From assembly GCF_013371465.1 (NCBI RefSeq), contig NZ_JABWDU010000003.1, positions 868,001 to 932,000 of the forward strand: a DNA stretch of 64,000 bases, read 5' to 3'. Of this stretch, positions 7,829 through 32,085 are shown piece after piece. The position numbers and the translations under genes are program-made. The stretch's first letter is position 1; each line of letters starts with the position of its first letter. The stretch comes from Ensifer oleiphilus (GTDB lineage Bacteria; Pseudomonadota; Alphaproteobacteria; Rhizobiales; Rhizobiaceae). Under the pieces are notes generated by a model, which saw only the letters and a program-made list of their open reading frames with translations, made no database searches and was not told the DNA's origin.

Positions 7829-7850
7829 ACCGCTGCCAACACCCAACACG

Positions 7851-7878
7851 AAAAGGCCCGGTCGCGACCGGGCCTTTT
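7851..7878. terminator. Bidirectional terminator between hemN and norD
   Basis: A 28-base perfect palindrome with a GGCCCGGTCGCGACCGGGCC core, flanked by A4 and T4. It lies between the convergent stops of hemN (7828) and norD (7899) and can serve both strands. Confidence 0.9.
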
Positions 7879-7898
7879 CCATGTTTCAAATCAACCTT

Positions 7899-9800
7899 CT
7901 ATCCCGCCAGGCTTCGGTAGATCGCCGGTAGTGCCGCCGGGAGCCGGGCGATGTTGCCGACCAACGCATAGCCGTTCTGGCCGAACATGGCAGGCACATA
8001 GGACTGCGCCTCGCGGTCGACGGTAACGGCAAAAGCGCTGATGCCGCTGCGCCGCGCTTCCATGACGGCCTTGCGGCTGTCCTCCAGCGCGAAGCGCCCC
8101 TCATAGTGATCGACGTCGTTCGGCTTGCCGTCGGTCAGGACCAGCAACAGCTTCTTGCTGTTGAGCTGTTTCTGCAGTTCGGCTGTGGCATGGCGGATGG
8201 CGGCCCCGATGCGGGTATAGTATCCCGGCTTCAAGGCGGCGATCCGGCTTTCGACGAGCGGGCTCATCGGCTCGTCGAAAGCCTTGACGCTCTCCACCTT
8301 CACCCAGTCTCGCCGCCGCGAGGTGAAGGTGAGGATCGAATGATTGTCGCCGCAGGCAGACAGGCCATGGGTGAGAATGAGCAACGCCTCCTTCTCGACA
8401 TCCAGCACCCGGCGATTGTCGGACCAGGCATCGGTCGAAAGCGAGACGTCCACCAGGATCGTGACGGCGAGATCGTGAACTTGCGGGCGGCTCATTAGGT
8501 GGATGCGATCGCTCCCCTGCCCGCCGGCAGCCAGATCGGTGCGGGCGCGCACCACAGCGTCGAGATCGAGATCGGCGCCGTCGATCTGCGCGCGCAGCAT
8601 TTCATTGCGCGGCCGAAGCACCTCGAACTGGCGCCGAACCCGCCGGATCAGGCTTTTGGTTTCCGCCGTCAGCTCAGCTCGGTCTTCGATGCCCGAGGCC
8701 GGGCCTGTCAGGACGCGGCAATGGTCCTTGAGATAGCTCGACGTCCTGTAGTTCCACTCGGGATAGGTCAGCTCCGATGTCAGCGGCGTCGGATCGACGG
8801 CTTCCGGCGGCAGGTCGAGGTCGAAGCGGAAACGCGCGGACGGGCGGCCCTTGCGCTCGCCCAGCGTCATCTCGTCCAGATCCTGCGCCGCCTTGTTGTC
8901 GTGTTCATCGCTGTCGTCCGACGGTCGGTCGACATTGACCATCTCGGCCATCGCCAGGATCTTCTCGAAGCGATTGAGGATGAAGGGGCTGCGATCACCC
9001 TTGCGGTTTTCGGGATTTTCCCGGACGGCCACGTGGCGTTCGGTCTCGGCAATCTGGCTGGAGGCGGCACCTGTTGCCGCGATATCGTCATCGCGTTCTG
9101 TTGCCGTCTCCGGCCGCAGCAAGGTATCCGGCCACAGCGGAACCGGCAGCAGCGGCAAATATCCCGCTGGCGCGCGATGCGGGAAGATCACCGGCAAAGT
9201 CGTATCCGGCTGGCCGGCCGCCTTGCGCAGCAACCGCAGCACGCGGTTTTCGACATGCTGCTCCACCGAAGGAAGGGAGCCGCGCTGACGCTCGACAAGG
9301 ACGGCTTCTGCCAGGCGGCAGTATTTGTGGCGCATGCCTGGGAAGCGTTGGAAGACCTCGGCCACGGTCTCCTGCGCCTGGGACAGATAGGACAGGTCCG
9401 CCTGCAACGGATCCGCTTCGTCGCGGGGGACGAGCGGCATGGTCGCCATGTACGCGACCAGCCAGAAATAGAGATCGATGTTGAGTCTTCTGTCGGGAAA
9501 AATGTCGATCTCGCCAGGCAGCATCAGCGAAGCATGATCCCGACCGGGCTGAACGAGCTTTTCCTCGCCGAGCCCCATTTTCTGTCGCCACTTCAGCCGA
9601 TGGCCCGATGTGCGGCCGCGCGCCGGCACGATCTGGACCGCGGTTTCGCCGCCGTGTCCCCGAAAGCTGATCGCCAGCATCGGCATCATGTCGACCAGCT
9701 TGACGGCCTGCTCGGGATAACGTCGCCAGGTGCCGGTGTTGCCGATGAAGCTGTGCCAGGCGCGCCCGACCGTTTCTTCGAGTTCAAGGAAATCCAGCAT
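7899..9800 (-). CDS. norD: Nitric oxide reductase activation protein NorD
   Basis: A 633-aa protein with a C-terminal von Willebrand A domain; the MIDAS motif DVSLS is in LAVTILVDVSLSTDAW and the later LLLVLTDGKPND is typical. NorD works with the AAA+ ATPase NorQ in maturing the NorCB reductase, probably helping insert the non-haem iron. The long acidic middle (DDSDEHDNKAAQDLDE) is common in this family. It follows norQ by only 10 bases, with GAGGA as Shine-Dalgarno, as the last gene of norCBQD. Confidence 0.95.
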   Translation of the reverse strand: MLDFLELEETVGRAWHSFIGNTGTWRRYPEQAVKLVDMMPMLAISFRGHGGETAVQIVPARGRTSGHRLKWRQKMGLGEEKLVQPGRDHASLMLPGEIDIFPDRRLNIDLYFWLVAYMATMPLVPRDEADPLQADLSYLSQAQETVAEVFQRFPGMRHKYCRLAEAVLVERQRGSLPSVEQHVENRVLRLLRKAAGQPDTTLPVIFPHRAPAGYLPLLPVPLWPDTLLRPETATERDDDIAATGAASSQIAETERHVAVRENPENRKGDRSPFILNRFEKILAMAEMVNVDRPSDDSDEHDNKAAQDLDEMTLGERKGRPSARFRFDLDLPPEAVDPTPLTSELTYPEWNYRTSSYLKDHCRVLTGPASGIEDRAELTAETKSLIRRVRRQFEVLRPRNEMLRAQIDGADLDLDAVVRARTDLAAGGQGSDRIHLMSRPQVHDLAVTILVDVSLSTDAWSDNRRVLDVEKEALLILTHGLSACGDNHSILTFTSRRRDWVKVESVKAFDEPMSPLVESRIAALKPGYYTRIGAAIRHATAELQKQLNSKKLLLVLTDGKPNDVDHYEGRFALEDSRKAVMEARRSGISAFAVTVDREAQSYVPAMFGQNGYALVGNIARLPAALPAIYRSLAG

Positions 9801-17248: not shown

Positions 17249-17755
17249 ATGACCCTACCCTTTGCGATGACCGCACCGTTGCGGTTCGCGCCGCTTCCTC
17301 TCATCGAACACGCCACGCGGCTCGTCTTTGCCCAGGTCGTTCGGCAGTACCCTGACCTTTTCGACCGGCTCGGGGAGCACGCCGACAAACGCTATGCCTT
17401 CGTCCCCACGGACCTTCCACTGGTCTTTCTGATAGAGCCGGCGGCTCGACGCATTTCCGTTCACCACAAGCCGCACCTGCCGGCCGCCGACGCCTGCATG
17501 GGCGGCACCTTCGTACTGCTCCTGGCGCTGCTCGAGGGTCAGCTCGATGGCGATGCCGTATTCTTCTCCAGAAGCCTGACGATAACGGGCGACATGGAGG
17601 CCATGTTGGCGCTGCGCAACGCGCTCGACGACTGCAATATCGACCTGCCGGCGGATATCGCCCGCATGAGCGGCCCGTTCGCGCCCCTGGTTCGGCGCGC
17701 GGCCAGCGAAATCAGGACACGCGCATTGTCGGGGGAGGCCGCCAGATGGAACTGA
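17249..17755 (+). CDS. ubiT: SCP2-domain protein UbiT
   Basis: A 168-aa SCP2 sterol-carrier-like protein. UbiT is an accessory lipid-binding factor of O2-independent ubiquinone synthesis and works with UbiU-UbiV. The SCP2 pattern is seen in ADKRYAFVPTDLPLVFLIEP, LEGQLDGDAVFFSRSLTITGDMEAMLALRNALDDCNID, the last part being typical of UbiT. ATG 17249 is preferred; ATG 17210 would add 13 residues. It overlaps ubiU by 10 bases. Confidence 0.9.
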   Translation: MTLPFAMTAPLRFAPLPLIEHATRLVFAQVVRQYPDLFDRLGEHADKRYAFVPTDLPLVFLIEPAARRISVHHKPHLPAADACMGGTFVLLLALLEGQLDGDAVFFSRSLTITGDMEAMLALRNALDDCNIDLPADIARMSGPFAPLVRRAASEIRTRALSGEAARWN

Positions 17756-18723
17756 TCTGTCCGGCAGGCACGCCAGCCGCCTTTCGCGAGGCCGTGGATG
17801 CCGGCGCCGATGCCGTCTATTGCGGCTTTCGCGACGAGACCAATGCCCGCAACTTTCCCGGCCTGAATTTTTCCCGCGACGAGCTGAAGACGGCGATTGC
17901 CTATGCCCGCCGACACAAGGTGATGACCTTCGTCGCCATCAACACCTTCATGCGCGCCGGACAGGAGAAGCTCTGGCATGACGCCGTCGATGATGCCGTA
18001 CGCCTTGGCGCCGATGCCCTGATCCTCGCCGACTTCGGCTTGATGGCCTACACCGCCGAGCGCCATCCGCAGCAACGGCTACACGTCTCGGTGCAGGCGT
18101 CCGCCTCCAACGCCGATGCGGTCAAATTCCTGGTCGAAACCTTCGGTGCGAAGCGTGTCGTGCTTCCGCGCATCCTCACCATTCCCGATGTCGCCCGTCT
18201 TGCGCGCCAGATCAGCTGTGAGATCGAGGTCTTCGTTTTCGGCGGGCTTTGCGTGATGGCGGAGGGGCGCTGCTCGCTGTCATCCTACGCCACCGGCAAA
18301 TCGCCCAACATGAACGGCGTCTGCTCGCCGGCAAGCCATGTGCGCTACCGCGAGGACGGCAGCGAACTCGTGTCGGAACTCGGTGACTACACGATCAATC
18401 GGTTTCCCGCCGGCGAGGCCGCCGGTTACCCCACGCTCTGCAAGGGCCGTTTCGACATAGCCGAGGAGCGCGGATACGCCTTCGAGGATCCGGTTTCGCT
18501 CGACGTCATGGACCATATCGATGCCTTGCGCGATGCCGGCGTCGGAGCACTGAAGATCGAGGGGCGCCAGCGCGGCAAGGCCTATGTCGCCGAGGTCGTT
18601 TCCGTCATGCGCCGCGCTGTCGCTGCCGATGCAACTGAGAGACCCGCCTTGCTGTCGCGCCTCAGGCGGCTCAGCGAAGGACAGAAGACGACGTCGGGCG
18701 CCTATGAAAAGCGGTGGAGATAA
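17746..18723 (+). CDS. ubiU: O2-independent ubiquinone hydroxylation protein UbiU (U32 family)
   Basis: A 325-aa U32-family protein. The four cluster-binding cysteines fall at 169, 176, 193 and 232, the same numbers as the [4Fe-4S] ligands of E. coli UbiU (GGLCVMAEGRC, NGVCSPAS, PTLCKG). With UbiV it forms the heterodimer that hydroxylates ubiquinone precursors without O2. It is between ubiT and ubiV in one operon. Confidence 0.95.
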   Translation: MELICPAGTPAAFREAVDAGADAVYCGFRDETNARNFPGLNFSRDELKTAIAYARRHKVMTFVAINTFMRAGQEKLWHDAVDDAVRLGADALILADFGLMAYTAERHPQQRLHVSVQASASNADAVKFLVETFGAKRVVLPRILTIPDVARLARQISCEIEVFVFGGLCVMAEGRCSLSSYATGKSPNMNGVCSPASHVRYREDGSELVSELGDYTINRFPAGEAAGYPTLCKGRFDIAEERGYAFEDPVSLDVMDHIDALRDAGVGALKIEGRQRGKAYVAEVVSVMRRAVAADATERPALLSRLRRLSEGQKTTSGAYEKRWR

Positions 18724-18727
18724 CGAC

Positions 18728-19678
18728 ATGCCTGCTACCCCCCACCTCTCGCTCAGTCTCGGCCCCGTGCTCTACCTTTGGGACGGACCCAAGTGGCGTG
18801 ACTTCTATTTCCGCATTGCCGACGAAGCCCCGGTCGACCACGTCACCCTCGGTGAAGCGGTCTGCTCCAAGCGCCTGCATTTCATCGAGCCGCATGTCGC
18901 CGAAGTCATCGAACGCCTGGAGGCCGCCGGCAAGAAAGTCAGCCTTGCTTCGCTGGCACTCGTCACCCTGGAGCGCGAGAGCCAACTCGTGCGCGGCCTG
19001 GTGCGCGACAGCATCCACCCGATCGAGGCCAATGATCTGTCTGCGCTCGGGTTGCTTGCCGGCAAACCGCATTCGATCGGGCCTCTGATCAATGTCTATA
19101 ATGGAGCCACCGCCCGATTGCTGGCGTCGCGCGGCGCGACCAGCATTTGCCTGCCACCGGAGTTGCCGATGGCGTCGGTCAGCGAGATCGTTCGTGATGC
19201 GCCTGACGTCGCGTTCGAAATCTTCGGCTTTGGCCGCGTGCCGTTGGCAATCTCGGCGCGTTGCGCTCACGCCCGTTCCAAGGGCCTGGTGAAGGACAAT
19301 TGCCAGTTCATCTGCGGCGACGACAGCGATGGGCTCATTGTCGAGACGCTTGATCGCCAGCCGTTCCTCGTCCTCAACGGGGTGCAGACCATGTCCCACA
19401 CATGCCAAAGCCTGCTGCAGGAACTTGCCGACCTGACTGCCGCCGGCATCAGCCGGATCCGGCTATCGCCGCAGGACTGCGACATGGTGACGGTCGCCCG
19501 CATCTATGAATCCGTCGCCGCCGGGCTGATGTCTGCGGCCGAAGGCCTTGCGCGTCTGGTGGCCGCCTATCCCGGCGTGCCGTTGTCAAACGGGTTTCAC
19601 TATGGCCAGACCGGCGCGTCGTGGATCGAAGCACCTGCCGGCGCGCGCAATGGAGGTGAAAGATGGCAGATGCGTTGA
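18728..19678 (+). CDS. ubiV: O2-independent ubiquinone hydroxylation protein UbiV (U32 family)
   Basis: A 316-aa U32-family partner of UbiU. Cluster cysteines are Cys46 (GEAVCSKRLHF), Cys179, Cys192 and Cys196 (SARCAHARSKG, DNCQFICGDD), the expected UbiV spacing. ATG 18728 has GGTGGAGA seven bases upstream and starts just after the ubiU stop; longer in-frame starts overlap ubiU. Confidence 0.94.
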   Translation: MPATPHLSLSLGPVLYLWDGPKWRDFYFRIADEAPVDHVTLGEAVCSKRLHFIEPHVAEVIERLEAAGKKVSLASLALVTLERESQLVRGLVRDSIHPIEANDLSALGLLAGKPHSIGPLINVYNGATARLLASRGATSICLPPELPMASVSEIVRDAPDVAFEIFGFGRVPLAISARCAHARSKGLVKDNCQFICGDDSDGLIVETLDRQPFLVLNGVQTMSHTCQSLLQELADLTAAGISRIRLSPQDCDMVTVARIYESVAAGLMSAAEGLARLVAAYPGVPLSNGFHYGQTGASWIEAPAGARNGGERWQMR

Positions 19679-20932: not shown

Positions 20933-21913
20933 ATGCCTATCCGCAACACCGACCAGATCATGCACAAGGCCGCATGGCTCTACTACAGCCATGGGCTACG
21001 GCAGGATGAAGTCGCGCAGAAACTGGGCATATCACGTGCCTCTGTTGCCACCTATCTCAGGCGGGCACGCGAGACCGGTATCGTCAATATCAGCACATCG
21101 ACGGAGCTTTTTACCGACGATGTGCTGGCGCGCGAACTGGAGGACGCAACCGGCGTGACGACCGCGTGGATCGTGCCGGAGGATCGACAGGCCATGGACC
21201 CGACGGCGGAGATGCCGGTGCTGGCCGCATCCGTCTTCCTCGAGCTGATCAACAAGGGCGACCGCGTCGGCGTCGCCTGGGGACGCACGGTTTACCACAT
21301 CGCCGACGTGATGCCCTTCGCCGATCTGCGCGGCGTCACGGTGGTGCAGCTCTGCGGCAATCTCGGAGCGCCCTATTCCTATCGACCGGATCAATGCACG
21401 ACGGAGATCGCGCGCCGGCTCAATGCCGAAGGCATCAATTTCTACGCACCGCTCGTCTTGTCATCCGAACGGCTGGCCGAAGAGCTTCGCGGCGAGCCGG
21501 TGATCCGCGAACAGTTGTCCACGATCGCCGACTGCCATCTGGCGCTCTATTCCGTCGGCGGCATCGAAGACGACAGCCATCTCGTCAAATGCGGCGCGCT
21601 CAGCGCCGATGAAATGCACCGCATGGGCGAAGAAGGGGCCGTCGGCGTCATCGCCGGGCAGCTGATCGACGGTGACGGCCAATGGGTGAACTGCGCCCAC
21701 AATCGACGCTGCATCTCCGCCGATCTCGGATCGATCCGCGCCATCGAGAAACGCATGCTGGTCGTCCAGGAAGACAGCAAGTTCGAGCCGTTGATGGCCG
21801 CGCTAAAGGGGGGCTTCGCCTCGCATCTCGTCGTCACGACGTCGATGGCGCGCCGGGTAATGGAGCGCTGGCAGCGCGACGGCCTGAGCAAGGTGCACGC
21901 CGCGACCGTCTGA
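20933..21913 (+). CDS. SorC/DeoR-type sugar-binding transcriptional regulator
   Basis: A 326-aa regulator with an N-terminal helix-turn-helix (LRQDEVAQKLGISRASVATYLRRARETG, about residues 22-50) and a C-terminal SorC sugar-phosphate-binding domain (GDRVGVAWGRTVYHIAD, VTVVQLCGNLGAP, GAVGVIAGQLIDGDG). Family members sense phosphorylated sugars. It has AAGGATCCCC before the ATG. The nearby transporter and mtnK-mtnA-transketolase-RLP genes are the likely targets because they share its operator. Confidence 0.9.
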   Translation: MPIRNTDQIMHKAAWLYYSHGLRQDEVAQKLGISRASVATYLRRARETGIVNISTSTELFTDDVLARELEDATGVTTAWIVPEDRQAMDPTAEMPVLAASVFLELINKGDRVGVAWGRTVYHIADVMPFADLRGVTVVQLCGNLGAPYSYRPDQCTTEIARRLNAEGINFYAPLVLSSERLAEELRGEPVIREQLSTIADCHLALYSVGGIEDDSHLVKCGALSADEMHRMGEEGAVGVIAGQLIDGDGQWVNCAHNRRCISADLGSIRAIEKRMLVVQEDSKFEPLMAALKGGFASHLVVTTSMARRVMERWQRDGLSKVHAATV

Positions 21914-22020
21914 AGCAGATCGCGCAAAAGTGTGCCATGGCCTTGCGATAACGACATGCGCAAAAACAAGAACGTAAGGAGCGCCAAGCGAAGCTGAAAA
22001 ATCCCGGCGCGCTTTAGGGC

Positions 22021-22368
22021 TCAGGGATGTGGATCGGGGAAGCCATGCCGCTCTGACAAGGCGGCAAGAAGCTTGTCCTTCTCGGAAACGAACGCTCTTC
22101 CTTGAAAGACGCCCGTTTGATGCTCCGATGTATTGCCGTCTGCCAGGACAAGCAACGGCAAGGATTGGTTTTCCTCTCCGACGAACGCAATAACGGGCAA
22201 TCGCGGACGAGGCCATGCAATCCGTTCAACGTCGATCCGCTTGGCCAAATCAGGAAACGACGCGAGAACCCCTTCAATAAGCGCACAATGCCAGCAGTAA
22301 AATTGCTGCCCTGGATAGGCGGGATCCTTGAAACCCGGCTGAATGAGAAACAGTTTATCTTTCACCAC
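22021..22368 (-). CDS. DUF3088 family protein
   Basis: A 115-aa protein with the DUF3088 pattern: MVKDKLFLIQPGF, YPGQQFYCWHCALIEGVL with a thioredoxin-like C-x-x-C (CWHC), and PLLVLADG. Function unknown; the fold is probably thioredoxin-like. It stands alone between the regulator and the ABC operon. Confidence 0.75.
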   Translation of the reverse strand: MVKDKLFLIQPGFKDPAYPGQQFYCWHCALIEGVLASFPDLAKRIDVERIAWPRPRLPVIAFVGEENQSLPLLVLADGNTSEHQTGVFQGRAFVSEKDKLLAALSERHGFPDPHP

Positions 22369-22788
22369 GAGGATGTCCTTTATCCTATCGCCCTAGATAT
22401 GCTTGAAATGGTCTTTCTTGTCCGCACCGAAGCTTGCCCGATGGTAAGCCTTACAGAAACCCGGGATGCGGGCTTTCATATCTCTCAGGATCGATACGAA
22501 TTCCTAACACCGAAGCCAGGCAATTTGCCTGGATCTGGAGAGATCGACTACGATTCGCTTGGATTTCGAGCGGAACTTACAAGCTCCTCAATGTAGAGCA
22601 AGTTCTTTCTCAAAGTTGAAAGAGGCAGCCCTGTCCGTCGAACGCCAGAACGCAATTTGAATTGAAGTCGCCAAGACTACTCATGTCCCGCAAGGTTTTT
22701 TCGCGTTTCTTTTCATTCTTCGAACCGGACCGGTTTTGACGAGGCAGAGATGGAAAAGCGACCCGATGTGCAAGGTTGGCAATAGGAA
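22369..22788. other. Gap without a recognisable gene
   Basis: About 420 bases of lower coding quality between the DUF3088 start and the ABC-operon terminator. Several short overlapping frames exist, but none shows a Shine-Dalgarno sequence or domain. Confidence 0.5.
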
Positions 22789-22816
22789 AACGGGGCGACC
22801 TTTCGACCGCCCCGTT
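22789..22816 (-). terminator. Terminator of the SorC-controlled ABC operon
   Basis: AACGGGGCG / CGCCCCGTT stem with a 10-base loop. Read on the minus strand it ends in TTTTCC, 22 bases after the binding-protein stop codon. Confidence 0.85.
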
Positions 22817-22838
22817 CTCTATCAAAACAACACTACGA

Positions 22839-23882
22839 TCAGGGCTTCGGCATCCAAGCCGGCATGGCGACATCGGCATGGGCGAACTGCGGCAGCTTGG
22901 TGCCAAGTTCTTCCATGTTCTTGATGTCCTGATCGTTCAGATCCTTCTGGGTGATCAGCGTCGGCGGCACGATGACGCTGCGGCCCGGGTCCTCGCCGGC
23001 AAGCAGCATGGCAAGCGTTCTGACCGAAACCTGTCCGACCACGGCCGGATTGGTGGCAGCCGTTGCCGCCCAGGCGGAATCCGGTTCGCGCATCGCGGCG
23101 ATATCCGAGGTCGAGATATCGGCGGAATAGATCTTCACGCTCTGCGACAGACCGGCTTCATCGACGGCGATCTTCACGCCCTTGGCGAACTCGTCATAGG
23201 GCGCGAACATCACGGTGATATCCGGATTGGCGGAAATGACGGAGCGTGCCTGGTTGGCGACCGAGTTGGCGATCGGGTTGTCCATCGTGCCGAACTGCGA
23301 GATTTCGTTGATCCCCGAATACTTGGCCTTGAATTCCTTCCAGGTCTCGTCGCGGCGATCGAGCGGCGCGATGCCGGCGACATAGACGTAGCCGGCCTTG
23401 AAGCTGTCGCCGTTGTCCTTGATCGCCTGCTCGAGGGCAAGGCGGGCAAGATCGCGGTCGGACTGCTCGACCTGCGGGATCTTCTCGTTCTCGACGTTGA
23501 CGTCGAAGGCCACGACCTTGATGCCGGCATCGACGGCACGCTGGGCGGCTTCCTTCATCGATTCCGTCAGGCCGTGCTGGATGATGATCCCCTGCACGCC
23601 GAGCGCGATCGCCTGGTCGACCATGTCGGCCTGAAGCGCTGCGTCCTGGCGGCTGTCGAGAACCTGAAGCTGGACGCCGAGAGCCTTTGCCTGCGCCTCC
23701 ACGCCGGCAAGGTAGGACTGGAAGAAGTCGCCGGTCGACAGATAGCGCACCAGCGCGATCTTGACGTCGCCCGGCTTGTCGAACGGCTTCGGCATGTCGG
23801 CGGCAAAGGAAGCGGTGGCGAAAGCCACGGTTCCTGCAAGGCCAAGCGCCAGCTTGCCCATTGCTCTGCGTGTAAAGTTCAT
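22839..23882 (-). CDS. Periplasmic sugar-binding protein (RbsB-like)
   Basis: A 347-aa type I periplasmic binding protein. It has a signal peptide (NFTRRAMGKLALGLAGTVAFATASFAAD) with a Tat-like RR, then a Peripla_BP_4 fold: VKIALVRYLSTGDFFQSYLAGVEAQAKALG, DAALQADMVDQAIALGVQGIIIQHG, GIKVVAFDVNVEN. It is the last gene of the minus operon ATPase-permease-binding protein. ATG 23882 has GGAGGAGACTGAA upstream. The ligand is probably a pentose-like sugar, given the catabolic genes opposite. Confidence 0.92.
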   Translation of the reverse strand: MNFTRRAMGKLALGLAGTVAFATASFAADMPKPFDKPGDVKIALVRYLSTGDFFQSYLAGVEAQAKALGVQLQVLDSRQDAALQADMVDQAIALGVQGIIIQHGLTESMKEAAQRAVDAGIKVVAFDVNVENEKIPQVEQSDRDLARLALEQAIKDNGDSFKAGYVYVAGIAPLDRRDETWKEFKAKYSGINEISQFGTMDNPIANSVANQARSVISANPDITVMFAPYDEFAKGVKIAVDEAGLSQSVKIYSADISTSDIAAMREPDSAWAATAATNPAVVGQVSVRTLAMLLAGEDPGRSVIVPPTLITQKDLNDQDIKNMEELGTKLPQFAHADVAMPAWMPKP

Positions 23883-23934
23883 TTCAGTCTCCTCCACTGG
23901 TGAACGTTTGTTTTCCGCCTCCGGGGCTTTCCCG

Positions 23935-25002
23935 TCAGCGTTTGCCTCTTTTCGAGAGCGCAAAGGTGAAGATCAGGGCGATGACGAGAACCGCGCCCTT
24001 GATGAAGTCCTGGGTGTAGTAAGGCGCGTTCATCATCGTCAGCCCCTGGAGCAGGATGCCGACGAAGAGGGCGCCGATGGCCGTGCCGAAGGCATTCGGC
24101 TTGGCCGCACCGAGCACGGCAAAACCGATGAGGGCTGCGGCGACTGCATCGAGCAGCAGGTTGTTGCCCGAGGCGATATCACCGCGGCCGAGGCGCGCGG
24201 CCAGCAGAATGCCGCCGATCGAGGCGAAGACGCCCGAGATGACATAGGCCGAGATCTTGTAGGCATTGACCGGGGCGCCCGCCAGACCGGCGGCGCGCTC
24301 GTTCGAGCCGACCGCATACATCATCCGCCCGAAGCGGGTGTATTCGAGGAAGAACCAGATCACGACCGCCAGCACGATCAGCACCACCACCGAGACCGGC
24401 ACCAGGTTCGGCAGGACCAGATCGAAGCGGTGACGTCCGAGCGCCAGGAAGGCGGGGCTAAACGTGCCTGTGGCGACCGAACCATCGGGAAGCGTCATGC
24501 CGGCGGCAATCGAGCGCCCTTCGGTCGGGATGCGCTGCAGGCCGAGCAGCAGGAACATCATGCCGAGCGTCGCCAGAAGATCCGGCACGCGCATATAGAC
24601 GATGATGATGCCGTTGATCAGCCCGACGAGAACGCCGATCGCCAGGCAGACGAGCGTTGCCGTCAGCGCGTCGCCGCCCATCACCACCATCACATAGGAT
24701 GACGCCATCATCGACGTGGTCGCGACCGAGCCGATCGACAGGTCGAAGCCGCCGACGACGAGCGTGGCCGTGACGCCGAGCGCCAGGATGCCGGTGATCG
24801 ACACGGATTGCAGGATGAAGACGGCGCTCTGCGGCGAGGAAAACCCGCTCGTCACCAGCGAGAAATAGACAACCAGTCCGGCGAGCAGAACAAGGAAGCC
24901 GTATTTGATCGCCACGTCGCGCAAGCTTATTGCCGGACTTGCCGGCGGCACCGGCAGCGCGGAAGCGGCGGGCGTTGCGGGTTTCATCTGTTCACTGCTC
25001 AT
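23935..25002 (-). CDS. ABC sugar transporter permease (RbsC-like)
   Basis: A 355-aa permease with about ten helices of the BPD_transp_2 family; ILALGVTATLVVGGFDLSIGSVA and YAVGSNERAAGLAGAPVNAYKI are typical. A single permease gene implies a homodimer. ATG 25002 lies inside the last 11 bases of the ATPase gene, so translation is coupled. Confidence 0.94.
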   Translation of the reverse strand: MSSEQMKPATPAASALPVPPASPAISLRDVAIKYGFLVLLAGLVVYFSLVTSGFSSPQSAVFILQSVSITGILALGVTATLVVGGFDLSIGSVATTSMMASSYVMVVMGGDALTATLVCLAIGVLVGLINGIIIVYMRVPDLLATLGMMFLLLGLQRIPTEGRSIAAGMTLPDGSVATGTFSPAFLALGRHRFDLVLPNLVPVSVVVLIVLAVVIWFFLEYTRFGRMMYAVGSNERAAGLAGAPVNAYKISAYVISGVFASIGGILLAARLGRGDIASGNNLLLDAVAAALIGFAVLGAAKPNAFGTAIGALFVGILLQGLTMMNAPYYTQDFIKGAVLVIALIFTFALSKRGKR

Positions 25003-26515
25003 GGGGCTGTCCCTGCTGATGATGTTGACCGGCGATCTCCTGTAGGAGGCGCTCGACGTCGACCGAGGCGTTGCGATGCTCGCCGACAACAGTATGCTCG
25101 GACATCACCAGAATACGGTCGGCAATCTCGAAGGCTTCGTCGAGTTCGGTCAGGAAAACGATGGTGGCGCGACCTGAGGCCGAGGCGCGCAGCTTGGCGC
25201 CGATGTCGCGGCGCGCGGCGATGTCGACGCCCTGGAAGGGCTCGTCGAGGATCAGCAGGCGCGAGGGCTCGGAAAGCCAGCGCCCGACCATCACCTTCTG
25301 CTGATTGCCGCCGGAAAGGGTCTGCATTTCGTCGCGCTCGCTGCGGCAGACGACGCCGAGGGCCGCGATCTGCGCCCGCGATTTCGCCCGCTCGGCCGAC
25401 CGGCTGGATATGCCGAAGCGCGACAGCCGTTTAAGAAACGGCAGGCTGATATTCTCGTAAATGTTGAAATCCGGAACGATGCCGCTGTCGGCCCGATCCT
25501 TGGCGACGAGAAACACGCCCTTGGCAATTGCCTGGCCGGTCGATTGTGGATGGTAGGATTTGCCGTCGAGCGTCATCTGGCCGGCCACGGCATGCCGCGC
25601 CCCGAACAGCGTTTCGGCCAATGCAGTCTTGCCGACGCCGACAAGCCCGGTGACGGCAACGATTTCGCCATCGCCAAGCGCCAGATCGAACGGACGGGAC
25701 GTCTCCGTCAGCCGTAGGCCCTTCACCGAGAACACAGCACCGAATCCTTCGCGCACGGTGACGGCGCCTGCCGAGACCTTTTGCCCGAGCATCGCGTTGA
25801 CTGCACCTTCATAATCCAGATCCGCCCCTTCGAAACGGCCGGTTATGCGCCCGTCGCGCAGCGTGACGATGCTGTCGGCGAGCCGGCGGATGTCGGACAT
25901 TCGGTGCGAGATATAGAGGATGGCAACGCCGCGGGCTTTCAGCCGGTCGAGGAGATCGAACAGCCGATCGGCCTCCGCACTCGACAGCGACGAAGTCGGC
26001 TCATCGAGGATCAGCACTTGCGGTTCATGCGCCATGGCACGCGCAATCGCCACCATCTGCCGGTCGGCAAGCGTCAGGTCGTTGATATCGGCGGAAAGAT
26101 CGATCGCGAGGCCCATGCGGGCCGCAACGACGGCCGCCTCGCGCCGGACACGGCGCGGGTTGAAAAACAGGCGTGCACCGCGACCATTCAGCCGGTCGAG
26201 CGTGAGATTGGTCGCAACATCGAGATCGGCAACGACGCCGTCATTGATGTTCTGATGAACCGTGACCACGCCCGCCCGGATCGCCTCTGCCGGCGTTGCC
26301 GGCGCGAATGGAATATCGCTGAGCCGCATATCCCCGGCATCGCTGACGTAGACGCCGCTGAGGATGCGCACCAGTGTCGACTTTCCAGCGCCGTTGGCGC
26401 CCATCAGCACCGTGACGGCACCCTTGCGCAATTCGAGATCTACGCCCTTCAGGACCGGTATCGGCCCGAAGGATTTGCGCACGCCCTCGATGCGAAACAC
26501 TGCTTGTTCGCTCAT
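24992..26515 (-). CDS. ABC sugar transporter ATP-binding protein (RbsA-like, two NBDs)
   Basis: A 507-aa protein with two nucleotide-binding domains. The first has Walker A GANGAGKST and LILDEPTSSLS; its signature region is LTLADRQMVAIARAMA. The second has GLVGVGKTALAE, LSGGNQQKVMVGRWL and LLILDEPFQGVD. As in other RbsA/MglA proteins the second domain is degenerate. First gene of the operon, diverging from mtnK across the operator at 26561. Confidence 0.95.
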   Translation of the reverse strand: MSEQAVFRIEGVRKSFGPIPVLKGVDLELRKGAVTVLMGANGAGKSTLVRILSGVYVSDAGDMRLSDIPFAPATPAEAIRAGVVTVHQNINDGVVADLDVATNLTLDRLNGRGARLFFNPRRVRREAAVVAARMGLAIDLSADINDLTLADRQMVAIARAMAHEPQVLILDEPTSSLSSAEADRLFDLLDRLKARGVAILYISHRMSDIRRLADSIVTLRDGRITGRFEGADLDYEGAVNAMLGQKVSAGAVTVREGFGAVFSVKGLRLTETSRPFDLALGDGEIVAVTGLVGVGKTALAETLFGARHAVAGQMTLDGKSYHPQSTGQAIAKGVFLVAKDRADSGIVPDFNIYENISLPFLKRLSRFGISSRSAERAKSRAQIAALGVVCRSERDEMQTLSGGNQQKVMVGRWLSEPSRLLILDEPFQGVDIAARRDIGAKLRASASGRATIVFLTELDEAFEIADRILVMSEHTVVGEHRNASVDVERLLQEIAGQHHQQGQPHEQ

Positions 26516-26560
26516 GCTCTCCTCCCAATGAAAGGCACGTTAGGATGGCTATCCATCAAA

Positions 26561-26584
26561 TGTCAAGGCTGTTGACATTTGACA
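26561..26584. promoter_or_regulatory. SorC-family operator in the transporter-mtnK divergent promoter
   Basis: A perfect TGTCAA-GGCTG-TTGACA inverted repeat (26561-26577) directly followed by a third half-site TTTGACA (26578-26584). The core equals TGTCA-N5-TGACA at 20903. It sits between the ATPase start (26515) and the mtnK start (26662), so one regulator can control both operons. Confidence 0.8.
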
Positions 26585-26661
26585 GAATGGCGACTTACCT
26601 ATGAGCCACGACAGCATGACGAGGAGCGGCAAAGGCCGGTCATGCGGACATGGAGGAGCCT

Positions 26662-27933
26662 ATGGACAAACACGTTTTCGAGGCGCTGAGCGCCGAAACG
26701 CTGCCATCAAGACTGAGCGGCAACACGGCCCTTTGCGACAGGATCGGCGGCGATCATGGCCGCTGGCAGGTCAAGGAGGTCGGCGACGGCAACCTCAACC
26801 TCGTCTTCATCGTCACGGGCGAGAAGGGTGCGGCGATCGTCAAGCAGGCGCTCCCCTACGTCCGGCTCGTCGGCGAGCGTTGGCCGCTGCCGCTGAAGCG
26901 CTCGTTCTTCGAGTATCACGCCCTCATTCGCCAGGCAGCGCGCGATCCGGGCATGGTGCCCGAAATCCTGTTCTTCGACGCCGAACAGGCAATGATCATC
27001 ATGGAATACCTGACGCCGCACGTGATCCTGCGGCGCGCGCTGATCGCGGGGCGAATGCTACCGAAGATCGGTCGCGACCTCGGGCTTTTCACGGCCCGCA
27101 CGCTTTTCCGCGGCTCTGATCTTTCGATGCCGACACGCGACAAGAAGGCCGACCTCGCGCTTTTCGCCGACAATGTCGAACTCTGCGACATCACTGAAAA
27201 CCTCGTCTTCTCCGATCCCTACTTCGAGGCGGAGATGAACCGGCACACGAGCCCGCATCTCGACAACCTGGTCGAAGAGTTGCGCCGCGACCGCGACCTG
27301 AAGGTCGAGGCCCAGCGGCTGAAACATATCTTCTCCGCCAAGGCCGAAACCCTTTGCCACGGCGACCTGCACACCGGCTCGGTCATGGTCACCGACGACG
27401 AGACTCGCGTCATCGACCCGGAATTCGCCTTCTACGGCCCGATCAGCTTCGATGTCGGCATGCTCTTGGCGAACTTCTGGATGAGCTACTTCTCTCAAGG
27501 TGGCCACGAGACCACCGCCGGCGAACGCGACCAGATGCGCGCCTACCTGCTGGATACGACGGAGACGATCTGGGAAACCTTCTGCGACGAGTTTTCCGCG
27601 CTCTGGCGATCCGATCGCAAGGGCATCCTCTACCAGGCAAGCCTTTTCGAAGACCGCAACGATCCGTTCGGCTCGGAACAGGCACTGACCATCGTTCTCG
27701 ATGAGATCTACCGCGAGATGCTTGGCTTTGCCGGGGTCGAGATCCTCAGGCGCATCCTCGGCCTTGCCCACAATGCCGATTTCGAAACCATCGACGACCT
27801 CAGCCGCCGCGCCCAATGCGAAAGCAAGGCGCTGAAGCTCGGCCGTCATCTCGCCGTCAACCGGGATCGCATTGCGAGCCTCAGGGACATTCGCGCCACC
27901 GCGCAACGGCTTCAGCAGGAGACACTTTCGTGA
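26662..27933 (+). CDS. mtnK: S-methyl-5-thioribose kinase (MtnK family)
   Basis: A 423-aa APH-fold sugar kinase. MtnK phosphorylates 5-methylthioribose at C1. Visible are the N-terminal nucleotide loop ([13 protein letters not shown]), [10 protein letters not shown] with the ATP-binding Lys, the catalytic loop [11 protein letters not shown] (about residues 233-243), and the [15 protein letters not shown] metal motif. ATG 26662 sits 5 bases after GGAGG. Its stop overlaps the mtnA GTG. The neighbours are not the classical methionine-salvage set, so a related C5-modified ribose is also possible as substrate. Confidence 0.92.
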
Positions 27934-29024
27934 AAGTCGGAGAAAAGCACTACCATACGATCTGGCTCAATGCCGATGGCCGCTCGGTCGATATCATCGA
28001 CCAGCGCTGGCTGCCGCACGAGTTCCGCATCGTCACGCTGAAAACGGTTGCGGATGTTGCCGTTGCCATCCGCGACATGTGGGTGCGCGGCGCACCGCTG
28101 ATCGGCGTCACCGCCGCCTATGGCATCGCGATTGCCATGGCCGACGACCCGTCCGACCGGCATCTCGACGCTGTCTGGGAAGAGCTCAACGAGACCCGGC
28201 CAACGGCGATTAACCTGCGCTGGGCGCTCGACGCCATGCGGCAGTTCCTGCGGCCGCTACCCGCCGAAGATCGCGCCGAAGCCGCCTACAGACGCGCCGG
28301 TGAAATCGCAGAAGAGGACGTCGAACTCAACCGGGCGATCGGGGCGAACGGCCTGAAGATCATCCGCGAGATCGCCGCGACCAAGAAGCCCGGCGAGCCC
28401 GTCAACATCCTCACCCACTGCAATGCCGGCTGGCTCGCGACCGTCGACTACGGAACGGCAACGGCGCCGATCTATATGGCGACCGAGGCGGGCATTCCCG
28501 TCCATGTCTATGTGGACGAGACCCGGCCGCGCAACCAGGGTGCGCAGCTGACCGCGTGGGAGCTGAACGGCCACGGCGTGCCGCACACGCTGATCGTCGA
28601 CAATGCCGGCGGCCACCTGATGCAGCACGGCGCCGTCGACATGGTGATCGTCGGCACCGACCGCACCACGGCCAACGGCGATGTCTGCAACAAGATCGGC
28701 ACCTATCTGAAGGCCCTTGCCGCCAGCGACAACGATGTTCCCTTCTATGTCGCGCTCCCCTCGCCGACCATCGACTGGACGGTCAAGGACGGCGTCAAGG
28801 AAATCCCGATCGAGGAACGCACCGGCGACGAGGTGAGCTTCGTCCAAGGGCGTGGCCCCGATGGCGCGATCATCTCTGTACGCGTCTCGCCCGAAGGCAG
28901 CCCTTCGGCAAACCCGGCCTTCGACGTGACGCCTGCCCGGCTGATCACCGGCCTCATAACCGAACGCGGCGTCGCCACGGCTTCGCCGCAAGGCCTCAAA
29001 GCGCTGTTTCCGGAAAGGAGCTGA
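27930..29024 (+). CDS. mtnA: S-methyl-5-thioribose-1-phosphate isomerase (MtnA family)
   Basis: A 364-aa aldose-1-phosphate to ketose-1-phosphate isomerase. Key features are [13 protein letters not shown] (53-65), the catalytic Cys164 in [11 protein letters not shown] and Asp244 in [19 protein letters not shown]. The GTG start at 27930 overlaps the mtnK stop (GTGA) and has AGGAG upstream; an upstream ATG in the same frame would lie deep in mtnK. The product would be the 1-phosphate ketose for the RuBisCO-like protein. Confidence 0.94.
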
Positions 29025-29027
29025 CCG

Positions 29028-29963
29028 GTGAGCCTCACGAACCATAAGACCACCGAAGAGATCGCGCTCGGCATCCGCCGCCGCGTCTTCTTCCACACGA
29101 TGAAGAACAATGGCGGCTATCTTAGCCAGGCCTGCTCGGCCGCCGAAAGCCTCGCCCTGCTTTATAACGAACTCCTCAAGCTCGGTGAGCCGACCCTGCC
29201 GAAGGTGCCGCTGCCGTTCCGCGGCGTGCCGTCGGCCGATAATCCCGACGCCTTTACCGGCGCCGGCTATCACGGGCCGGCGGCCCCGGACTACGATCGC
29301 TTCATCATCTCGCCGGCGCATTACGCGCTGGTGATCTACTGCGCGCTGATCGAGGTGGGCCGCATGGATGAACACGCGCTCGACCATTTCAACAAGGACG
29401 GTAGCTCGGTCGAGATGATCGGCGCCGAGCACAGCCCAGGCATGGAAGTAACGACAGGCTCGCTGGCGCAGGGGCTTTCCATGGCCGCAGGCGTTGCCTT
29501 CGCCCGCAAGAAGCGCAAAGAGCCGGGCAACGTCTGGGTCTATATGTCCGACGGAGAATTCCAGGAGGGCCAGACCTGGGAGTGCCTGGCCGCCATGGCC
29601 CACCACGGCATCGACAACATCCGCGTCATCGTCGATGTCAACCGTCAGCAATGCGATGGCGCCATGTCCTCGGTTCTCGATCTCGGCGACCTTCCCGGCC
29701 GGGTTAAAGCCTTCGGCGCGACCTGCCGCTCGATCGATGGCCACGACCTCCAGGTCATGCGCGACGCGGCCAACAGTGCCGAGCCGGGCAAGCCGCTGGT
29801 TATCCTCGCCAATACCTCACCGTTCCAGGGCATGAACTTCCTTAAGAAGCGCTTCCCGCGTCTTCACTACGTGCGCTTCAAGAGCGCCGAAGAGCGGCTC
29901 GAAATGCAGACGGCGCTCGCCGCCGAACTGGGCGTCAGCCCGAACGAAATGGAAGGGGCCTGA
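29028..29963 (+). CDS. Transketolase, N-terminal (TPP-binding) subunit
   Basis: A 311-aa split transketolase half. The TPP/Mg motif is seen as MSDGEFQEGQTWECLAAMAH followed by VIVDVN, and FIISPAHYALVIYCAL and EHSPGMEVTTGSLAQGLSMAAG are typical. It needs the C-terminal half encoded next. It starts with GTG, three bases after mtnA. Split transketolases of this type are used in other sugar operons (e.g. apulose-4-phosphate transketolase); here the donor is probably the product of the RLP or isomerase step, which is inference. Confidence 0.92.
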   Translation: MSLTNHKTTEEIALGIRRRVFFHTMKNNGGYLSQACSAAESLALLYNELLKLGEPTLPKVPLPFRGVPSADNPDAFTGAGYHGPAAPDYDRFIISPAHYALVIYCALIEVGRMDEHALDHFNKDGSSVEMIGAEHSPGMEVTTGSLAQGLSMAAGVAFARKKRKEPGNVWVYMSDGEFQEGQTWECLAAMAHHGIDNIRVIVDVNRQQCDGAMSSVLDLGDLPGRVKAFGATCRSIDGHDLQVMRDAANSAEPGKPLVILANTSPFQGMNFLKKRFPRLHYVRFKSAEERLEMQTALAAELGVSPNEMEGA

Positions 29964-29965
29964 GC

Positions 29966-30967
29966 ATGGTCGAAATCGTCAATCGCCCTTACGCGAGGGC
30001 ATTCGAGGCTTTCGCGACAGCGCGCCCGGAAGTGCTTTGCCTTTCGGCCGACCTCACCTCGTCGTGCGAGGTCGACGGCTTCCGCGACCGGCATCCCGAG
30101 CAATTTCTGTCGCTGGGCATGGCCGAGCAGAACATGCTGTCCTTCGCCGGCGGCCTAGCCATGCAGGGTTATCGGCCTTTCATCCACACCTTCTCGGTGT
30201 TCCTCTATCGGCGCCCCTATGACCAGCTGATCAATTCGATCGCCTATTCCAACCGCAAGGTGCGGCTGATGGGCTTCCTGCCGGGCATCACCACGCCGGG
30301 CGGCATCACCCACCAGGCGATCGAGGACATCGCCGTCCTGCGCGCCGTGCCGAACATGACGATCCTCGAAACCGGCGACGCGACCGAGGTCGAAACCGTG
30401 CTTGAGGTTGCCGACGCGATCGACGGGCCGGTCTATGTCCGCATTCTTCGCGGCGAGGTCCCCCGTCTCTTTTCGACGCCGTTCTCATTCAACACGTTGC
30501 GCACGCTCTCGGAAGGCGACGACATCCTCGTGGTCAGCTCCGGCGTCTGCACCGAGGAAGCCTTGCGCGCCACAAAGCCGATCGAGGCGCGCGGCATCGG
30601 GCTTCATCATCTGCACGCCTCGACGCTGAAGCCGTTCGACCGCGACGGGCTTATCAAGGCTGCGCGCGGCAAGAAGGGCATCGTCACGCTGGAAAACCAC
30701 ACCATCGTCGGCGGGCTCGGTTCGATTGTTGCCGAGATAATCGCCGAAGAGGGCCTTGGCGTCCGCCTGAAGCGTCTCGGTCTGAAGGACACGTTTGCCC
30801 ATGGTGCGTCGAAGCCTTACCTCATGAAGAAGTATGGCCTCGACGCCGGCGCGCTTGTGGCGGCAATCGAAGACCTGACGGGCAAGTCGCTTGGCATCGG
30901 CGACGATGAACTGACCGAGGTTCGCCTCGATCACGTGCATTCGGCGCAGAAGGCGGAGGCGCTCTGA
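29966..30967 (+). CDS. Transketolase, C-terminal (Pyr plus C domain) subunit
   Basis: A 333-aa partner of the preceding gene. Features: FLSLGMAEQNMLSFAGGLA with the conserved Glu that activates TPP, GYRPFIHTFSVFLYRRPYDQL, and a C-terminal domain with TLENHTIVGGLGSIVAEI. It begins 2 bases after the N-terminal subunit stop; its stop overlaps the RLP start, so the five genes are tightly coupled. Confidence 0.92.
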   Translation: MVEIVNRPYARAFEAFATARPEVLCLSADLTSSCEVDGFRDRHPEQFLSLGMAEQNMLSFAGGLAMQGYRPFIHTFSVFLYRRPYDQLINSIAYSNRKVRLMGFLPGITTPGGITHQAIEDIAVLRAVPNMTILETGDATEVETVLEVADAIDGPVYVRILRGEVPRLFSTPFSFNTLRTLSEGDDILVVSSGVCTEEALRATKPIEARGIGLHHLHASTLKPFDRDGLIKAARGKKGIVTLENHTIVGGLGSIVAEIIAEEGLGVRLKRLGLKDTFAHGASKPYLMKKYGLDAGALVAAIEDLTGKSLGIGDDELTEVRLDHVHSAQKAEAL

Positions 30968-32085
30968 TGGCTCCGCGGTTCACCGTCAGCTACTACGTCA
31001 GGGCGGCCGACGAGGCCGAGGCACGCGCACGGGCGCTCGATATCGCCCTGGAACAGACGGTCGAGATCCCGAGGGATGTCGTGCCCAAAGGCTATGTCGA
31101 GGATGAAATCCTCGGCAAGCTCGAAGCCCTGGTGAAGGACCCCGACGGACGGCCCGGCTATCTCGCCAGCATTTCCTACAGCGAGGATGATGTCGGCGGC
31201 GACTTCCTGCAGTTCCTCAACATCGTCTTCGGCAACAGTTCGATCAAGCCGGGCCTGAAGGTCGAGAACATCGGCCTGTCCAAGGGTATCCTTGCGCTTT
31301 GCCCGGGCCCGAAGCATGGCATTGCCGGCTTGCGGCAAAGGGCCGGCATCGGCGCGCAACCACTGTTGATGTCCGCCATCAAGCCGGTCGGCCTGTCTTC
31401 TGCGGAGCTTGCCCAGCGGGCGCATGATTTTGCGCTCGGCGGCATGCATTTCGTCAAGGACGACCACGGGCTGGTGGATCAACGAACGTCGCCATTCGCC
31501 GAGCGGCTGGCGGCCTGCGTCGACGCCGTCGGTGACGCCAATGCCAAGGGCGGCGGGCAAGCCAGTTTCGTGCCGAACATCACGGCGTCGGCAAAAGAGC
31601 TGTTCGAGCGGGCGATAATGGCGCAGGAGGCCGGCGCCGGTGGTGTGATGATATCGCCGGCTCTTGCCGGCTACGACGTCATCCACACGCTGGCTTCCGA
31701 TCCGGACTTCACCCTGCCGATCGTTTCGCATCCAGCGTTTTCCGGCGCCAACGTCGTCTCTCCGGAGACCGGCTTTTCGCATCGGTGCTTCTACGGCGCC
31801 CTGCAGCGCCTGATGGGCGCCGACGCGGCGATCTATCCGAATTTCGGCGGCCGCTTCGGCTTCACGCGCGAGGAGTGCCAGTCGATCGCCAAGGCCTGCG
31901 CCGACGACATGGGTGGCCCGAAGGCGATCGTGCCGGCGCCCGGCGGCGGCATGAACCTCGGCCGCGTTCCCGAGATGCGCGACGCTTACGGAAACGACGT
32001 CATGTACCTCATCGGTGGTGCATTGCTGCAAGACACGGACATCGTTTCGGCCAGCCGCCGGATCGTCGAGGCGGTCGCGCGCTAG
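30967..32085 (+). CDS. RuBisCO-like protein (form IV)
   Basis: A 372-aa RuBisCO-superfamily protein with the two-domain layout. The active-site Lys is in SAIKPVGLS (Lys139). The carbamate motif reads Lys164-Asp-Asp-His167 (HFVKDDHGL): the Glu of the RuBisCO K-x-D-E motif is replaced by His, and the loop-6 Lys segment is not recognisable (PNFGGRFGF instead). It is therefore not a CO2-fixing enzyme. With mtnK-mtnA upstream, an isomerase-type RLP is the best guess (cf. the R. rubrum RLP acting on methylthioribulose-1-phosphate); RLPs of apionate-type pathways are an alternative. Confidence 0.93.
   Translation: MAPRFTVSYYVRAADEAEARARALDIALEQTVEIPRDVVPKGYVEDEILGKLEALVKDPDGRPGYLASISYSEDDVGGDFLQFLNIVFGNSSIKPGLKVENIGLSKGILALCPGPKHGIAGLRQRAGIGAQPLLMSAIKPVGLSSAELAQRAHDFALGGMHFVKDDHGLVDQRTSPFAERLAACVDAVGDANAKGGGQASFVPNITASAKELFERAIMAQEAGAGGVMISPALAGYDVIHTLASDPDFTLPIVSHPAFSGANVVSPETGFSHRCFYGALQRLMGADAAIYPNFGGRFGFTREECQSIAKACADDMGGPKAIVPAPGGGMNLGRVPEMRDAYGNDVMYLIGGALLQDTDIVSASRRIVEAVAR

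Follow-up and report, generated by a model that had tools for sequence, protein, structure and literature searches.

A stretch of the Ensifer oleiphilus genome raises the question of how a modified pentose might be broken down once the kinase MtnK and the isomerase MtnA have acted on it. This stretch, hereafter called the window, comprises 64,000 nucleotides (positions 868,001 to 932,000 of contig NZ_JABWDU010000003.1) of a 6.76-Mb genome. An island at window positions 20933-32085 carries the gene for a SorC-type regulator, a sugar ATP-binding cassette (ABC) importer encoded on the minus strand, and a divergent operon of the order mtnK-mtnA-tkA-tkB-RLP, wherein tkA and tkB encode the halves of a split transketolase and RLP denotes a RuBisCO-like protein. 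The first two steps are common to universal methionine salvage (MtnKABCD or MtnW). No dehydratase, enolase/phosphatase or dioxygenase is found among the operon genes, although neither the window nor the genome was searched for MtnB, MtnC or MtnD.

The answer we judge to be probable is that this cassette imports 5-methylthioribose (MTR) and breaks it down as far as a cleavage by the transketolase. No description of this combination was found in the literature searched, which left most subscription papers outside, and a RuBisCO-like protein, a transketolase and mtnA appeared nowhere together in it.

A conserved gene cassette

A preliminary description, made from the sequence of the window, had proposed an mtnK-mtnA-split transketolase-RLP operon opposite an ABC importer, and this arrangement has held up. 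All named genes are confirmed, and their junctions are tight. The mtnK stop and the mtnA start overlap (GTGA, the mtnA start being GTG), as do the tkB stop and the RLP start (TGATG, the RLP start being ATG), while the mtnA/tkA and tkA/tkB junctions leave gaps of 3 and 2 nucleotides. Among the 43 RLP loci in genome_contigs, 41 hold the genes for the substrate-binding protein (SBP), MtnK, MtnA, TkA, TkB and RLP together, so the gene set is not a product of chance. Of the other two, one begins at a contig edge (L023) and one is an RLP fragment alone (L034). These loci include records from Ensifer, Shinella, Rhizobium, Ciceribacter, Brucella/Ochrobactrum, Metarhizobium and Devosia, and the nearest named relatives of the window RLP are Ensifer records (94-96% identity).

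The combination is thus present as described but is not unique to this genome, given that 23 of 397 genomes in an order-level sample carry the tkA-tkB-RLP trio, seven of them with other neighbours. Matches at E 1e-50 or better were found in 17 of 385 class-level and 6 of 398 phylum-level genomes (the E. oleiphilus genome included), and four genomes from other orders (G737, G596, G1069 and G1043) were seen to have the trio. In one of these (locus L167 of G596, 7152-9119, minus strand) MtnA and TkA form a natural fusion of 656 residues that is followed by tkB and RLP; genes for a nucleoside transporter and for a TonB receptor adjoin this operon. At locus L079 (G388), the genes for ATPase, permease, SBP, MtnK, MtnA, TkA, TkB and RLP are consecutive on one strand.

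Among the 23 order-level trio genomes, 15 have mtnK and mtnA in the same stretch as the trio, and G172 has them on a separate contig whose first bases are already within tkB. In the remaining seven (G310, G346, G393, G370, G306, G071 and G282) an MtnA-family gene is present elsewhere in the genome. Its surroundings were fetched for all of these but G393 and G282. In G370, G306 and G346 this unlinked mtnA is accompanied by mtnK and by an importer like that of the cassette, whereas mtnA alone was recognised in the stretches of G071 and G310.

Predicted import, phosphorylation and isomerisation of the sugar

The SBP gene (22839-23882, minus strand) encodes a predicted periplasmic MTR-binding protein. 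Its best solved relative, by both sequence and fold, is the MTR-binding protein 4RY8, which is named in no paper in the literature searched. Because the predicted SBP fold is poor (mean predicted local distance difference test score 59.8), the likeness rests on the sequence match, and binding of MTR is a prediction from it. The importer is completed by a BPD_transp_2 permease (23935-25005, minus strand; PF02653, 138 bits), whose start is uncertain in that the open frame reaches 25089, and by an ATPase with two ATPase domains (24992-26515, minus strand; PF00005, two stretches).

On the opposite strand, mtnK (26650-27933, plus strand) scores 484 bits with TIGR01767 (cut-off 275), and mtnA (27930-29024, plus strand) scores 442 bits with TIGR00512 (cut-off 279), the query behind the latter score having started upstream of the gene at 27816. 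MtnA is the sole PF01008 match in the genome. Thus, the import, kinase and isomerase steps up to 5-methylthioribulose-1-phosphate (MTRu-1-P) are strongly supported as predictions. We also considered that this genome might have no nucleosidase for methylthioadenosine (MTA), given that TIGR01704 finds just 27.7 bits, and rejected this idea since a gene elsewhere in the genome (L146) passes TIGR01705 with 350 bits (cut-off 152). L146 is therefore a predicted MTA nucleosidase, and MTR can arise inside the cell too.

The RuBisCO-like protein and its relatives

The RLP gene (30967-32085, plus strand; PF00016) encodes a predicted MTRu-1-P 1,3-isomerase. Its nearest solved structure by sequence is 3qfw, titled as an RLP of Rhodopseudomonas palustris. 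PMC5893883 describes two RLPs in this species, of which RLP1 is an MTRu-1-P 1,3-isomerase in vitro. Since 3qfw is not RLP2 (2qyg), it is RLP1 by exclusion. The 15 best matches of 3qfw among our RLP rows (50-60% identity) are all cupin-linked. A K-D-D-H motif is kept in 61 of 70 transketolase-linked rows (eight others read KEDH and one has a gap) and in all 15 cupin rows, and four outer RLPs carry KDDE. In trees, the window RLP groups beside, not inside, the cupin-linked RLPs. We regard a 1,3-isomerisation of MTRu-1-P as the well-supported prediction for its reaction. The protein falls far below the cut-off of the MtnW model of universal methionine salvage (155 versus 514 bits).

This grouping invites comparison with the MTA-isoprenoid shunt of Rhodospirillum rubrum and R. 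palustris. The two systems have in common the MtnA product MTRu-1-P and the KDDH motif, and the cassette RLP groups beside the DeepYkr-type 1,3-isomerase. The shunt then uses a cupin, 1-methylthio-xylulose-5-phosphate methylsulfurylase, whereas the cassette has a split transketolase instead, together with its own MTR importer and SorC-type regulator. It also has MtnK where R. palustris has MtnP (PMC5893883). In the section of the same source consulted, the shunt with its cupin is the sole function assigned in vivo to this RLP subgroup.

Both tkA and tkB are in the locus for 67 of 92 RLP rows, all at 40% identity or more, and a cupin gene adjoins 16 of the 92. No cupin match was found in 26 transketolase-linked loci (L095 being counted via L128), in the window or in the 43 genome_contigs loci, and neither tkA nor tkB was found in the 16 cupin-linked loci. 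No locus searched for both has both, which is a partner swap.

Some assignments behind these counts were made by hand. Three rows were labelled transketolase-linked in the tree: L078, where the contig breaks off partway through tkB; L095, which is separated by 21 kb from tkA-tkB of its own contig (L128); and L034, the RLP fragment, where no transketolase was seen. L103 carries the label OTH in the tree, but it has a cupin match, which an overlap filter had hidden, and is counted among the 16. When cupin-side open reading frames (ORFs) were compared with Pfam, those of L098, L099, L100 and L105 matched Cupin_2 and those of L097, L101 and L103 matched nothing, the ORF scanned for L097 and L101 lying on the strand opposite to the cupin match.

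Three further RLPs were noted in passing. The second RLP of the E. oleiphilus genome (L115; G000:C30:320354-321253) belongs to the KDDE type, is 25% identical and shares its stretch with genes for a sugar ABC transporter. Another RLP (L107:6553-13807; 36% identity) lies with MtnK, a PfkB kinase and an NMT1-type ABC transporter, and neither cupin nor transketolase was seen there. A fast-evolving RLP with IEQP at the carbamate motif (L109:8901-11056) has an APH-fold kinase as its neighbour, and the genome concerned carries a transketolase-linked RLP as well.

A remodelled split transketolase

The tkA gene (29028-29963, plus strand; PF00456, 66 bits) encodes the N-terminal half, which binds thiamine diphosphate (ThDP), and tkB (29966-30967, plus strand; PF02779 and PF02780) encodes the C-terminal half. 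Their best matches in the PDB are the N-terminal component (6yak, 115 bits) and the C-terminal chain (6yaj, 217 bits) of the Carboxydothermus split transketolase, with which they have in common the encoding of the halves by separate genes as well as the ThDP and catalytic residues. AptAB and sulfofructose transketolase are further split transketolases.

Residue columns were anchored on another transketolase of the same genome (L177), and we take the numbering and residue roles to be those of the Escherichia coli enzyme. Rows of 150 amino acids or fewer were dropped, which left 67 of 68 rows for TkA and 68 of 69 for TkB. Kept throughout are H66, D155 and the ThDP-binding Asn (67/67 each) and H473 and R520 (68/68 each), and nearly so E411 (67/68, one Asp) and S385 (67/68, one gap). 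Other columns are changed almost without exception: H26 is Tyr in 66 of 67 rows (one gap), H100 is Met in 66 of 67 (one Leu), D469 is Gly in 68 of 68 and H261 is Arg in 67 of 67, the alignment being uncertain at the last of these. Taken together, the ThDP site and catalytic Glu of a canonical transketolase are present, and its donor and phosphate pocket (H26, H100, H461, D469 and R358) is replaced in nearly all rows.

The second split transketolase of the same genome (L182) is a useful reference. It keeps H26, H100 and H461, which are replaced in nearly all of the RLP-linked enzymes, but like them has lost D469, R358 and H261. Thus, only the changes at the first three columns set the RLP-linked enzymes apart from it. 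Given that H100 presumably binds the C1 hydroxyl of the donor, its loss would fit a donor that has no such group, for example a 1-methylthio ketose.

Proposed pathway

We propose that the ABC importer brings in MTR, which may also come from MTA via the predicted nucleosidase elsewhere in the genome. MtnK would convert MTR to MTR-1-phosphate, and MtnA would convert this to MTRu-1-P. RLP would then shift the carbonyl by 1,3-isomerisation to give 1-methylthio-xylulose-5-phosphate, a compound with the D-threo configuration at C3 and C4 that transketolases need and, with moderate support, the putative donor for TkA-TkB. Acting in the place of the cupin, this enzyme would cleave the C2-C3 bond with ThDP to yield glyceraldehyde-3-phosphate (G3P) and a methylthio-C2 unit. 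The order of kinase, isomerase, carbonyl shift by RLP and transketolase had been suggested in the preliminary description and is the best-supported one. The substrate is narrowed to MTR because the SBP is nearest to 4RY8 and the RLP groups beside MTRu-1-P isomerases, which makes 1-deoxyxylulose-5-phosphate (DXP) from 5-deoxyribose secondary.

What happens to the C2 unit is more speculative. The bound unit would be an enamine with a methylthio group in the beta position, from which methanethiol could be expelled to leave acetyl-ThDP and, in turn, acetate or acetyl-phosphate. Alternatively, the unit might be transferred to an aldehyde acceptor. We favour the elimination over the transfer, and there are precedents in the loss of sulfite in sulfoacetaldehyde acetyltransferase and of water in phosphoketolase. 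Nevertheless, we advance methanethiol elimination as a tentative suggestion about which we have more doubt than confidence. The same reserve applies to the broader idea that the whole constitutes an O2-independent route by which all of MTR ends up as central carbon and reusable methanethiol, some bacteria feeding it through RLP and others through an enzyme resembling xylulokinase; this is conceivable, and we would not yet rely on it.

Evidence against the proposed pathway

Several observations weigh against this proposal. Three of the 26 order-level genomes with a close transketolase (at least 65% identity; two more genomes have one at 48 and 43%) are without such an RLP (G273, G330 and G367), and so the donor must also arise in another way. 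Seven loci (L082, L084, L086, L089, L090, L111 and L128, which we took with L122, L123, L126, L127 and L095) join the trio to other neighbours. A BisC-like S/N-oxide reductase gene is near the trio in all seven, although the only one scanned (L084) scores 866 bits, below the family cut-off of 1018. Genes for a XylB-like FGGY kinase, a Zn-alcohol dehydrogenase, an AraD-type class II aldolase/epimerase and a PfkB kinase are present in five of the seven (G310, G346, G370, G282 and G071). These four were not seen in G306 or in G393, where the locus is cut by contig ends.

Loci of this second kind have the look of a route by which a sugar with oxidised sulfur feeds the same transketolase. A XylB-like kinase (278 bits, cut-off 380) is also found in the transketolase locus of G367. 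Xylulokinase accepts 1-deoxyxylulose, and a xylulokinase could make a 1-modified xylulose-5-phosphate directly. The constant element therefore seems to be the transketolase with a 1-modified xylulose-5-phosphate donor, RLP being one of two feeders. Three loci (L189, L190 and L191) have a transketolase of the same kind and no close RLP; a BisC-like reductase is beside it in L189 and L190, L189 also has DmsA/DmsB-type genes, and L191 has a XylB-like kinase. We set aside the methionine-side neighbours of L084, L086 and L090 (homocysteine methyltransferase and an ABC permease) as parts of a pathway, given that their orientation varies and that all are from one genus (g103). The methylthioxylose of mycobacterial lipoarabinomannan was no more than a passing thought as a substrate of the loci with FGGY-type kinases, and it was likewise dropped; the sugar does exist, but nothing about its catabolism turned up in the literature searched.

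The transketolase itself calls for caution. In all 68 rows H461, which we take to be a phosphate ligand, is Phe and R358 is another residue, and therefore the G3P half cannot be bound in a simply canonical way. The RLP-linked enzymes share their changes at D469, R358 and H261 with L182, and these are therefore nothing peculiar to them. Moreover, what stands at the place of H100 depends on the alignment: our columns give Met there, whereas HMMER leaves a gap when it pairs the protein with 6yak. Support is weak (80/48 and 85/64) at the base of the split that separates transketolase-linked from cupin-linked RLPs. Finally, none of the cassette genes was recognised as one for an acetyl or a methanethiol product.

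Alternative explanations

A further difficulty concerns aldolases, and it leads to an alternative in which aldol cleavage is the main exit from MTRu-1-P and the RLP-transketolase part is a side branch that recycles 1-methylthio-xylulose-5-phosphate or makes a 1-modified heptulose. Transketolase can reportedly make 7-deoxysedoheptulose from a 5-deoxy sugar. The preliminary description had noted that no aldolase is present, and this is true of the window as tested: queries for a cupin, an aldolase/short-chain dehydrogenase (SDH) fusion, an AraD-type enzyme, a XylB-like kinase and an S/N-oxide reductase found no match in its 64 kb (tblastn, one query each, E 1e-4). It does not extend to the relatives, where an aldolase/SDH fusion of RhaD type, or the fetched part of one, adjoins the SBP gene in 30 of the 43 loci and could consume MTRu-1-P without RLP. 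The fusion follows mtnA in L118 and L119 and lies 3' of the SorC gene in L116 and L117. No fusion was seen beside the SBP gene in L001-L005, L015, L021, L023, L027, L030, L032, L033 and L034, where some stretches are cut short. Two that were scanned pass NF006192, 'bifunctional aldolase/short-chain dehydrogenase', with 853 and 1155 bits (cut-off 639), and the E. oleiphilus genome has three unlinked homologues, at C31, C1 and C11, with identities of 43, 47 (aldolase part only) and 35% among them. The cassette also has MtnK and MtnA in common with the dihydroxyacetone phosphate (DHAP) shunt (MtnK-MtnA-Ald2/DrdA), which has a class II aldolase and yields DHAP where the predicted C3 product here is G3P. 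Some of the shunt's published clusters include sugar transporter genes (PMC6079011), and R. palustris runs aldolase and RLP branches in parallel (PMC5893883). However, the window and the L079 stretch keep the whole RLP-transketolase part and have no such aldolase, although unlinked homologues could still serve. The relatives probably have two exits from MTRu-1-P, and the Ensifer form probably leans on RLP and transketolase, unless an unlinked aldolase serves. We consider the side-branch explanation improbable.

A somewhat better alternative, albeit still an unlikely one, is that the cassette serves 5-deoxyribose or other 5-deoxypentoses. RLP would then make DXP, and the transketolase would either split DXP into G3P plus a hydroxyethyl (acetaldehyde) unit or act as a DXP-exchanging enzyme. 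E. coli MtnK and MtnA are described as active on both MTR and 5-deoxyribose (PMC10986504), and DHAP-shunt clusters use MtnK and MtnA paralogues (PMC6079011). The DXS of the E. oleiphilus genome likewise has no His at the H100 column (Pro). In contrast, the protein that the SBP most resembles binds MTR, a methylthio substrate is the one on which activity of the related RLP1 was demonstrated (PMC5893883), and the BisC-like reductase in all seven loci of the second kind points to sulfur despite its score below cut-off. By far the least probable candidate, and one we rejected, is the breakdown of apiose, hamamelose or another branched sugar by a split transketolase of the AptAB type and a decarboxylating RLP, a type of pathway that the preliminary description had named as one of the findings that would overturn it. 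The pairing of a split transketolase with an RLP is reminiscent of apiose catabolism. The RLPs of apiose catabolism are described in PMC6302742. The window RLP scores only 62 bits with the OiaX model (cut-off 700), the single XylB-like query for an FGGY apulose kinase found no match in the window, the kinase and isomerase are MtnK and MtnA, and the SBP is nearest to an MTR binder.

Predicted regulation and neighbouring features

The regulator gene (20933-21913, plus strand; PF04198, 168 bits) encodes a SorC/DeoR-type sugar-responsive protein, and cassette-adjoining homologues are present in L001-L005, L027 and L116-L119. We infer that this protein binds a perfect inverted repeat, AAATGTCAA-N5-TTGACATTT, located at 26558-26580 between the ATPase and mtnK starts, and that it switches the divergent unit from there. 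Of 55 intergenic regions scored between ATPase and mtnK, 44 contain the core TGTCAA-N5-TTGACA without a mismatch and 46 contain it with two mismatches or fewer; L079 was left out because the two starts are not adjacent there. None of 200 shuffles matched as well in each of these 46 regions, while in the other nine (L080, L081, L083, L085, L087, L088, L091, L092 and L093) 30 to 196 of 200 shuffles were equally good. Genome-wide, the copy at 26558-26580 is the sole exact one, with one mismatch at three places and a single place for a backward control pattern. Within the window it is the sole match at one mismatch or fewer (0.03 expected).

Where relatives carry the aldolase/SDH fusion, the window has an ORF of 115 amino acids (22021-22368, minus strand) that has no NCBIfam match and presumably resembles DUF3088. 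Two overlapping ORFs at 17746-19678 (plus strand) resemble a U32-peptidase-type pair, which we take to be UbiU/UbiV-like. Elsewhere in the genome (L140; G000:C31:262000-280000), an aldolase/SDH fusion is clustered with a SorC-type regulator, a PfkB kinase and an ABC transporter.

Implications

E. coli is said to export methylthioribose. If our proposal is correct, rhizobia and their relatives could use this compound when it is supplied from outside. The intermediate that enters the MTA-isoprenoid shunt would then have a second exit, in which a remodelled transketolase replaces the cupin and the outcome is not isoprenoid, and 1-thioether ketoses would constitute a new class of transketolase substrates.

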